Assembly: GCA_007695175.1 (NCBI GenBank) | Contig: REEH01000133.1 | Coordinates: 1 to 64,000 of the forward strand | Source of the DNA: Spirochaetaceae bacterium | Lineage (GTDB): Bacteria > Spirochaetota > Spirochaetia > DSM-27196 > Alkalispirochaetaceae | DNA length: 64,000 bases | Direction: 5' to 3' | In this document: in pieces, positions 42,962 through 45,049 of the stretch | Position numbering within the stretch: position 1 is the stretch's first letter | Layout: each line of letters opens with the position of its first letter | Position numbers and translations under genes: made by a program | The notes under the pieces: model-generated | The model's database searches: none | What the model saw: the letters and a program-made list of their open reading frames with translations, nothing else | What the model was told of the DNA's origin: nothing

Positions 42962-43570
42962 ATGGCTTTTGAAACACCGGCATTGCCCTACGCGTACAAT
43001 GCACTGGAACCGCACATCGACGAAGCGACGATGAAGGTTCATCACGATAAGCACCACGTGGCGTATACGACCAAGTTGAACGCAGCGGTGGAGGGAACGG
43101 AATTTGCGTCCATGGATGCGCTGGAGATCCTGACGCGGCTTGACTCGCTGCCCGAGAAGATTCGCGGCGCCGTACGAAATAATGGTGGCGGGCATGTCAA
43201 CCACATTCTCTTTTGGGAAATCATGTCACCCCAGGGTGGCGGTGAACCCACGGGCGAGCTTGCCGACGCCATAAAGAGCGCCTTCGGGAGCTTTGATGCG
43301 TTCAAGGAGCAGTTTTCCGCAGCCGGAGCCAATCGCTTCGGGAGCGGCTGGGCGTGGCTTGTAGTAGCGCCGGGAGGCAAACTGGAGGTGATGAGTACGC
43401 CGAACCAGGACAACCCGATCATGGAGGGCAAAAAGGCGATCCTCGGAATGGACGTGTGGGAACACGCCTATTACCTGAAGTACCAGAATCGTCGCCCTGA
43501 TTACATAAACGCCTTTTTCAACGTAATTAGCTGGGAAGAAGTAGCCCGGAAGTTCCGCGACGCGCGCTGA
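42962..43570 (+). CDS. sodA: Superoxide dismutase, Mn/Fe family (Mn-like)
   Basis: This enzyme dismutates superoxide in the cytoplasm. At 202 residues all four metal ligands are present: H27, H81 ([11 protein letters not shown]), D164 and H168 ([15 protein letters not shown]). The PNQDNP segment at 147-152 carries the Gln position characteristic of manganese forms. A perfect AGGAGGAAG ribosome site precedes ATG 42962, so this gene is normally leadered. It indicates regular oxygen exposure, in keeping with the flavo-diiron protein at 22840. Four large hairpins follow it. Confidence 0.95.
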
Positions 43571-43594
43571 GGGAAAGCGGTTTGGCCCGCGTTC

Positions 43595-43620
43595 CCTGAT
43601 GGGGTTTTCCCGGGATCAGG
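43595..43620. other. Hairpin 1 after sod
   Basis: CCTGAT (43595-43600) and ATCAGG (43615-43620) enclose GGGGTTTTCCC. It is a compact stem-loop without a following T tract, possibly the sod transcript end. Confidence 0.5.
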
Positions 43621-43665
43621 TGTTCTCAAAGTGAAGGGGACAAGTCCCCCTCACTTTGAGAACAC
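43620..43665. repeat. 46-base near-perfect palindrome (REP/MITE-like)
   Basis: TGTTCTCAAAGTGA (43621-43634) is the exact reverse complement of 43651-43664, flanked by one more G/C pair, and the inner GGGGAC/GTCCCC (43636-43641, 43644-43649) closes on a two-base loop. Only one position pair is mismatched. No T tract follows. Such hairpins are often dispersed repeats. Confidence 0.8.
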
Positions 43666-43710
43666 GCCATATCGAGGAGCAAAACCATGCATACCACGGA
43701 AGATTGGGGT

Positions 43711-43757
43711 GCAATTCTAAATGCGGAAGTCGTTCCGACTTTCACATTTAGAATTGC
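43711..43757. repeat. Second long imperfect palindrome
   Basis: GCAATTCTAAATG (43711-43723) and CATTTAGAATTGC (43745-43757) are exact reverse complements, and the interior AAGTCG/CGACTT continues the stem to a three-base loop. GGGG and CCCC outside extend the pairing. Its sequence is unrelated to the 46-base palindrome upstream. Confidence 0.8.
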
Positions 43758-43759
43758 TG

Positions 43760-43787
43760 CCCCGGGATAGTCTCGATTGTCCCGGGG
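43760..43787. promoter_or_regulatory. Inverted repeat overlapping the sufS promoter
   Basis: CCCCGGGA (43760-43767) and TCCCGGGG (43780-43787) form a perfect 8-base repeat. The right arm covers part of the sufS -35 box, so protein binding or cruciform formation here could block transcription. Confidence 0.55.
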
Positions 43788-43806
43788 CGCCCACACCCTG
43801 TATATT
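43777..43806 (+). promoter_or_regulatory. Promoter of sufS, leaderless type
   Basis: TTGTCC (43777-43782), 18 bases and TATATT (43801-43806) end seven bases before ATG 43814. The same TTGTCC-18 arrangement serves asnS. Confidence 0.65.
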
Positions 43807-43813
43807 AAAGAGT

Positions 43814-45049
43814 ATGACATCCTCTACTGACATCATCGGGATTCGATCCGATTTCCCCGCGCTGAATGGAACGATGCGCGGCAAGGATCTTGTGTATTTT
43901 GATAATGGAGCCACTTCTCTCAAGCCCCAGATCGTCATGGACGCTCTGGACGGGTACTATCGGGAGTACAGCGCCAACATTCATCGCGGCGTGTACGAGA
44001 TGAGCGAGCGGGCAACGGCGGCGTTCGATCGTGCCCGTGAGACGATGTACCGCTTCCTCGGCGTTGATCCGGAGAAGGGGGAGGTGATCTTTACCCGGGG
44101 GACAACGGAATCGATCAATCTCGTGGCCTACGCCTGGGGGATGAATGTGCTCGGTCCGGAGGACGAGATCGTGCTTACCGCCATGGAACACCATTCCAAC
44201 ATCGTACCCTGGCAGCAGGTAGCCCGCCGCACCGGCGCATCCCTGCGGTTTATTCCCCTTACGGAGGAGGGTACGCTCGAGGAAGATGGCATTACCGCCA
44301 CGATCGGTCCCCGCACACGGCTCGTGGCGATTACAGGCATGTCCAACGTTACCGGGTACGTACCGCCGCTGAAGACGATCCGCCGTGAAGCGCGACGGCA
44401 TGGCGCACTGGTCCTCCTGGATGGAGCACAGTATGTTTCGCACCATCCCGTGGACGTGCAGGACCTGGATTGTGACTTCCTGGCCTTTTCCGGCCACAAG
44501 CTGTGCGGTCCCACCGGGATAGGGGGCCTTTACGCACGGCGAACGCTCCTGGAACAGATGGAGCCCTTCCACTTTGGCGGGGACATGATCCGGGAGGTGC
44601 ATTTGCGGGAGAGTACCTGGGCGAATGTTCCGGAGAAGTTTGAGGCAGGCACTCCCAATATCGCGGGAGCGATAGGGATGGCCGCCGCGGCGGAGTACCT
44701 GATGAATGTGGGCATGGAATCGATCGCGCGGCATGAGCGGGAGTTGAACGCATACATGTACGATGCCCTGAGCACGCTCGACTACGTTACGCTCTACGGT
44801 CCCGTCTCGGACAGCGAGCGGGGCGGGATTTTCTCCATGAATCTCGAGGGTGTCCACGCCCACGACGTGGGCAGTCTTCTCGATCAGCAGGGCGTAGCAG
44901 TCCGGACGGGTTTTCACTGTGCCCAGCCCCTGATGGCGCATTTCGGGATAACCGGTACGGTGAGAGCTTCCTTCTATCTGTACAATACTCCCGATGAAAT
45001 AGACCTGTTCGTCCGGGCCCTGGAGCGCCTGTACGGGATTCTCCGGTAA
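43814..45049 (+). CDS. sufS: Cysteine desulfurase, SufS type
   Basis: This PLP enzyme takes sulfur from cysteine for iron-sulfur cluster assembly. Motifs are YSANIHRGVYEMSERAT, EVIFTRGTTESINLVAYAWG, the PLP Lys229 in FSGHKLCGPTG and catalytic Cys369 in RTGFHCAQPLMAHFG, the short SufS-type active loop. 411 residues. ATG 43814 starts MTSSTDIIGIRSDFPAL; the frame upstream to 43721 runs through a palindrome. The scaffold gene sufU follows after two bases. The sufBCD genes are not in the window. Confidence 0.95.
   Translation: MTSSTDIIGIRSDFPALNGTMRGKDLVYFDNGATSLKPQIVMDALDGYYREYSANIHRGVYEMSERATAAFDRARETMYRFLGVDPEKGEVIFTRGTTESINLVAYAWGMNVLGPEDEIVLTAMEHHSNIVPWQQVARRTGASLRFIPLTEEGTLEEDGITATIGPRTRLVAITGMSNVTGYVPPLKTIRREARRHGALVLLDGAQYVSHHPVDVQDLDCDFLAFSGHKLCGPTGIGGLYARRTLLEQMEPFHFGGDMIREVHLRESTWANVPEKFEAGTPNIAGAIGMAAAAEYLMNVGMESIARHERELNAYMYDALSTLDYVTLYGPVSDSERGGIFSMNLEGVHAHDVGSLLDQQGVAVRTGFHCAQPLMAHFGITGTVRASFYLYNTPDEIDLFVRALERLYGILR

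Follow-up and report, generated by a model that had tools for sequence, protein, structure and literature searches.

Inverted repeats in the gap between sod and sufS

Between a superoxide dismutase gene and a sufS-like gene of a Spirochaetaceae bacterium, within a stretch of 64,000 nucleotides (the window), a preliminary description had noted an array of four large inverted repeats and had likened them either to REP/MITE-type mobile repeats or to a structured regulatory RNA next to iron-sulphur genes. The question raised by this locus is thus what these palindromes are and whether they serve the genes beside them. The four repeats do exist: three were recovered by inverted-repeat search, at 43620-43641/43644-43665 (arms of 22 nt, 95%), 43706-43732/43736-43762 (27 nt, 85%, enclosing the 47-mer 43711-43757) and 43759-43772/43775-43788 (14 nt, 86%), and the 26-base hairpin at 43595-43620, CCTGAT...ATCAGG, was confirmed by direct reading of the sequence. 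Folded as single-stranded DNA, the 143-bp stretch from 43617 to 43759 reached -40.3 kcal/mol against a shuffle mean of -14.6 (z -10; 0 of 200 shuffles), and because this far exceeds the shuffles, the palindromes are not a product of chance. The preliminary description had also reported that no repeat has a T tract, and a scan of the forward strand for terminators likewise returned none. The names given to the two genes hold at the level of the family (superoxide dismutase, and class-V aminotransferase, a family that includes SufS), and the reported overlap of the fourth repeat with the sufS promoter agrees with the promoter scan. Four palindromes are therefore real as structures but not independent of one another: two are the ends of a single element, and the remaining two reach across its borders. 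A further hairpin right behind the sod stop codon was absent from the earlier description. The features of the locus are as follows.

42962-43570, forward strand: sod, Fe/Mn superoxide dismutase (family-level match)
43570-43597: extra hairpin right behind the sod stop codon, host sequence, arms 43570-43580/43587-43597 (inverted-repeat search)
43595-43620: first hairpin, in which host CCTGAT pairs with ATCAGG; its last four bases are the element's CAGG, and it arose at the left insertion junction (sequence against element border)
43608-43616: left copy of the target duplication, 9 bp, TCCCGGGAT, 8 of 9 positions identical to the right copy
43617-43759, forward strand: complete 143-bp MITE-like element, CAGGTGTTCTC...TTTAGAATTGCTG (dispersed near-identical copies; 9-bp duplication)
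43620-43665: left terminal palindrome, 46 bp, with the left terminal inverted repeat as its outer arm (inverted repeat, fold and copies; arm covariation in relatives)
43666-43710: spacer between the palindromes, carrying a GAGGAG...ATG motif (sequence and copies)
43711-43757: right terminal palindrome, 47 bp, with the right terminal inverted repeat as its outer arm (inverted repeat, fold and copies)
43760-43768: right copy of the target duplication, 9 bp, CCCCGGGAT, 8 of 9 positions identical to the left copy
43759-43788: fourth repeat, a GC-rich stem older than the insertion, which struck its 5' arm; the duplication then restored that arm (inverted repeat; empty-site fold)
43777-43806, forward strand: promoter-like site 5' of sufS, TTGTCC-18-TATATT, host sequence downstream of and outside the element (promoter scan)
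43814-45049, forward strand: sufS-like class-V aminotransferase of the cysteine desulfurase type (family-level match)

Dispersed copies, target duplications and the empty site

The preliminary description had proposed a search of the genome with the palindromes. When positions 43560-43800 were compared with the organism's own assembly (G000; 3.72 Mb in 256 contigs, 97% complete, the window being contig C256), dispersed copies were indeed found: the segment 43617-43759 recurs at many sites with 94-100% identity, which breaks off sharply at the same two borders, and the flanks differ. The ends of the element were set by comparing such copies. Its plan is CAG, left palindrome, a spacer of ∼45 bp, right palindrome and CTG, so that the two ends begin CAGG/CAGC. 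The outer arms of the palindromes, CAGGTGTTCTCAAAGTGAA and CAGCAATTCTAAATGTGAA, are related (14 of 19 positions identical in G000, by manual count) and therefore serve as terminal inverted repeats, each directly trailed by its own inverted copy. The one mismatched pair of the left palindrome is private to the copy in the window. The element is without a transposase gene, its longest internal frame from an ATG being about two dozen codons.

Counting in G000 gave 18 left and 19 right ends. Most of them sit at contig ends with ∼50-60 bases of the element each and interiors not read there, the pattern that assembly breaks at a repeat would give; with ends paired and two truncated copies allowed for, we estimate 20 to 24 loci. 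A 9-mer shared with at most one mismatch pairs 13 of the 18 left ends with a right end (8 exact, 5 with one mismatch), compared with 0 exact and 2 one-mismatch matches in 6840 control comparisons at other offsets in the same flanks. Four of these pairs lie on single contigs (C256, which is the window, C103, C202 and C177) and the remainder join C239/C24, C1/C173, C84/C51, C19/C39, C87/C235, C5/C119, C47/C98, C56/C120 and C246/C248; a fourteenth match with one mismatch, C255/C120, was left uncounted because it competes with the exact pair C56/C120. The length of the target duplication is thus fixed at 9 bp.

When the element and one of the two 9-mers are deleted from the window, the empty site is restored, and the target then falls within a GC-rich stem, CCCGGGATAGTC...GATTGTCCCGGG, in its 5' arm; therefore, the duplication rebuilt this stem to the right of the element, where it now appears as the fourth repeat. 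A preference for hairpin targets, suggested by the window copy, was dropped, as the mean fold of 33 reconstructed sites (-17.7) did not differ in that direction from that of controls (-18.9, p 0.9).

Among 100 related genomes searched, 4 matched, namely the organism's own and 3 of 6 congeners; the other 93 gave no match. When 392 genomes of the phylum, a sample that did not include G001, G002 and G004, were scanned for the exact end motif, matches came from the own genome and otherwise from just two stray sites, neither with a hairpin. Searches of plasmids and phages gave no match, and the single match in a viral contig was without a hairpin. Rather than the single-copy sequence with no counterpart in relatives that the preliminary description had named as the contrary case, we therefore find many copies in G000 and relatives of the element in half of the congeners. 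Complete copies measure 143 bp in G000, 142 bp in G001, 141-144 bp in G002 and 145 bp in G004. The duplication has at most one mismatch in all 10 complete G002 copies given (6 exact), is exact in G004 and is poorer (2 of 9 positions mismatched) in G001. At the locus itself, in 6 of 6 congeners, sod adjoins sufS and the element is missing, as seen directly in four of them and as follows from the spacing of both matches in two. A 111-bp copy in G002 (L217, contig C127, 4011-4121) belongs to the own-genome subtype, unlike the other copies in G002. Its left palindrome is longer, and its 9-bp duplication is exact.

Concerted arms, inverted loops and shortened copies

The left hairpin was aligned over 14 of the 18 left-end rows of G002 (L216, L217, L219 and L228, damaged or hybrid, were left out), and 95.2% of the cells were paired. 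Two-sided changes were present at 6 pairs, in 15 cells, a level reached by 0 of 500 shuffles; slid versions of the structure gave at most 3 such pairs, and a one-sided change that keeps the pair was seen in two cells only. Read from the alignment, this pattern is explained no less well by one arm serving as the template for the other than by slow selection for the structure; template-switch correction of imperfect palindromes is described as a known type of mutation (PMC3820800). For the right hairpin, 13 distinct G002 right ends (identical copies taken once) were aligned together with C190, leaving out L218-4194, L219, L227, L228, L235 and L239, which are hybrid, damaged or of other length. 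Here, two-sided changes were not above shuffles (353 of 500 reach the observed level), and covariation is therefore established for the left hairpin only. The loops occur in both orientations at both ends: of 18 G000 copies, 12 have AA and 6 have TT as the left loop, and GGAAC replaces GTTCC in the right loop in 2 of 21 intact G002 rows (manual count). Together, the concerted arm changes and the loop inversions make the formation of hairpin or cruciform DNA at such ends testable in the cell.

Shortened copies of 111, 66, 54, 53, 53, 51, 51, 48 and 27 bp lie within 9-bp duplications, with at most one mismatch in all nine and none in 4. In G000, the copy on C230 has lost the right palindrome and that on C189 part of the left. 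Single hairpins usually combine the outer arm of one end with the body of the opposite end, the product expected of slippage between GTTCTCAA-type motifs common to both. Three of them (L253, L097 and L270) have no duplication at the hairpin edges and look, from their sequence, like one end of a longer copy that has decayed. Two G002 copies (L221 on C126 and L234 on C181) have the same internal deletion junction, GGTGGC/AATACCTG, keep only ∼8 bp of one terminal repeat and are flanked by exact 9-bp duplications that differ from each other, which hints that a shortened form has moved, or else that the same deletion arises repeatedly. The shortest remnant, 27 bp in G004 (L278, contig C335, 859-885), is little but the two terminal repeats within the exact duplication ATGACGGGC.

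A non-autonomous transposon and the alternatives to it

Overall, the results identify 43617-43759 as a non-autonomous, MITE-like transposon with an unusual end structure. It lies at many unrelated sites, is flanked by a 9-bp target duplication, has related ends of CAGG/CAGC type and no transposase gene, and its site is empty in congeners. What is unusual is that its terminal inverted repeats are palindromic, with concerted changes in the left arms and loops in two orientations, and that REP-like remnants (48-66 bp, and one of 27 bp) stand within 9-bp duplications. We put a probability of roughly 0.87 on the full account, according to which the segment is one copy of a MITE of this Spirochaeta-like genus, moved in trans by a DDE-type transposase, with palindromised ends and erosion after insertion. 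The transposase is most likely of DDE type, an assignment that rests on the fixed 9-bp duplication, and would act in trans. Such an enzyme would bind the outer arms, cut at CAG...CTG and join the ends to target cuts staggered by 9 nt, the repair of which would yield the duplication. Each end would have become a full palindrome through an inner arm that copies the terminal repeat in inverted orientation, and hairpin or template-switch repair may keep the arms alike and would also invert the loops. After insertion, slippage between arms would delete parts of the element and leave REP-like single hairpins. The copy in the window simply inserted into the stem that follows sod, in its 5' arm; the promoter-like site of sufS is further downstream.

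No parent insertion sequence sharing the ends of the element was found among the loci of two transposase families, PF01609 and PF00872. G000 has two DDE_Tnp_1 genes, whose loci end differently from the MITE. The PF01609 loci L284-L291 were scanned for CAGG-type ends and showed no element-like pair. One of these loci, L287 on G000 contig C73 (47-2069), is an IS-like element of ∼2 kb with a DDE_Tnp_1 frame of 585 codons and terminal inverted repeats of 26 bp (TATTTTAAGCCGAACTTCTCAAAGAA), in which nine bases, TTCTCAAAG, are in common with the MITE end. It was rejected as the partner, since its ends otherwise differ from those of the MITE and no 9-bp duplication was seen; the nine-base match is probably due to chance, yet it is the nearest thing to a partner seen. 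IS256-type transposases (PF00872) are absent from G000 and were found only in G004, and a search for PF06782 (UPF0236, ISLre2-type) gave no match, but its controls gave none either. Wherever the contig at a G000 left end reaches further inwards, what follows is the 143-bp interior or a truncated version of it, and therefore no autonomous copy is visible in the assembly.

A variant of this account holds that the hairpins are the working part: the transposase might act on extruded hairpins or re-copy them, which would keep the arms matched, flip the loops and leave the 9-bp duplication, and single-hairpin derivatives would be mobile too. The common junction of the C126 and C181 copies within different exact duplications is a hint of such mobility. 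We consider this variant unlikely; if true, it would mean that 'orphan' REP palindromes without a RAYT are still being derived from a DDE-type MITE.

Of the REP/MITE-type mobile repeat proposed at the outset, the MITE part stands on the dispersed copies and the 9-bp duplications. The REP part, that is a REP or REPIN whose two inverted tagged hairpins are mobilised as single strands by a RAYT, a Y1 HUH transposase, is highly improbable. Y1 elements are not known to make a target duplication, and here duplications of 9 bp are found; the tag at the hairpin foot is CAGG/CAGC, not GTAG. A profile search of G000 (97% complete) for a REP-associated tyrosine transposase, a check that the preliminary description had suggested, returned 0 matches: PF01797 (Y1) is lacking in the own genome and occurs in only 1 of 8 genomes searched (G004), controls matching in 6 of 14. 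The resemblance is nevertheless close in plan, a tagged hairpin, a spacer and an inverted tagged hairpin, and extends to single-hairpin derivatives and to two-sided arm changes, which REPINs are described as showing too (PMC3116915, PMC8266576 for the plan and remnants; PMC3116915 for the changes). REPINs, as described there, belong to RAYTs, in contrast to the present element with its CAGG tag, its target duplication and a genome without a Y1 transposase.

The suggestion of a structured RNA that was selected here as a regulator or attenuator of the sod-suf region is not supported, and we regard it as very unlikely. In its favour, the RNA fold of 43571-43812 is very stable (-121.9 kcal/mol, z -9.3) and the element sits between sod and sufS. 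Against this, the same sequence adjoins surE, miaA-like, SDR, M20, M23 and response-regulator genes, the congeners lack it at sod-sufS, the element is upstream of the promoter-like site of sufS, and no Rfam family scored above its gathering threshold. The sole Rfam match, to mir-627 (25.4 bits against a gathering score of 86; 43605-43681, reverse strand), reflects the chance resemblance of a perfect palindrome to a microRNA model. Placement of the copies was judged by position relative to open frames, a test of gene avoidance by open frames being too blunt in GC-rich DNA. Of the 13 paired G000 sites (window included), 11 are intergenic, or no more than about a dozen codons from a gene end, or about thirty codons before a start, and 0 are clearly mid-gene, placement being readable for 11. 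Flanking fragments passed the Pfam cut-offs for SurE, IPP transferase (MiaA type), short-chain dehydrogenase, response regulator and M20_dimer and fell just under them for M23 and SBP_bac_5; one fragment had no Pfam match. Given this variety, the element is not tied to iron-sulphur or oxidative-stress genes, and its presence at about twenty other sites in the same bacterium marks it as a genomic parasite, not a control switch of iron-sulphur genes.

The reading as terminators and protein-binding palindromes clustered by chance, for which one host hairpin behind sod and the terminators that congeners carry in the same gap could be cited, is refuted for 43617-43759 by identical dispersed copies with target duplications and deserves next to no credence, although it remains true of the two flanking host hairpins.

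The short length, lack of a transposase gene, terminal inverted repeats and fixed 9-bp duplication are features of MITEs. MITEAba12 (113 bp) is moved by ISAba12 and likewise is small and non-coding, with terminal inverted repeats, a 9-bp duplication, tens of copies and no transposase of its own; it is described with terminal repeats of 16 bp and weak folding, in contrast to a palindrome of 46-47 bp at each end here (PMC6382973). The CIR elements of Caulobacter and Brucella are alike in that their 5' and 3' parts each have a long stem-loop of their own; they are set apart, by their description, by TA termini, no listed terminal inverted repeat and a duplication given as '?', whereas here there are terminal inverted repeats, 9 bp and CAG...CTG (PMC2229807). 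YPAL/RU-2 of Yersinia (∼168 bp, not AT-rich) has duplications and targets near dyad symmetry, as in the window copy, but its duplications are described as 3 to 26 bp and it has internal repeats (PMC2229807), and our 33 sites show no preference for hairpin targets. None of the titles listed by our literature searches concerned MITEs in spirochaetes. The analysis names such a family, and the striking structure between sod and sufS is a transposon scar, not regulation. The series from the full element through hairpins of 48-66 bp to the 27-bp remnant shows how REP-like single palindromes can come about without a RAYT, which bears on REP classes described as having no dedicated transposase, such as the CGTC REPs (PMC3733652).

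Two open frames begin within the element. One (43721-43813) has its start in the right palindrome; sharing the reading frame of sufS, it would add 31 codons to that gene. Its use is doubtful because the promoter-like site of sufS falls inside the extension. In copies of the own-genome type, GAGGAG and ATG precede a frame (MHTTEDWGAILNAEVVPTFTFRIA...; 43687-43770 in the window) that runs through the right end into the flank and soon stops. This frame is not conserved, because the G001 copy has a stop in it; judged by its sequence, it could produce small fusions.
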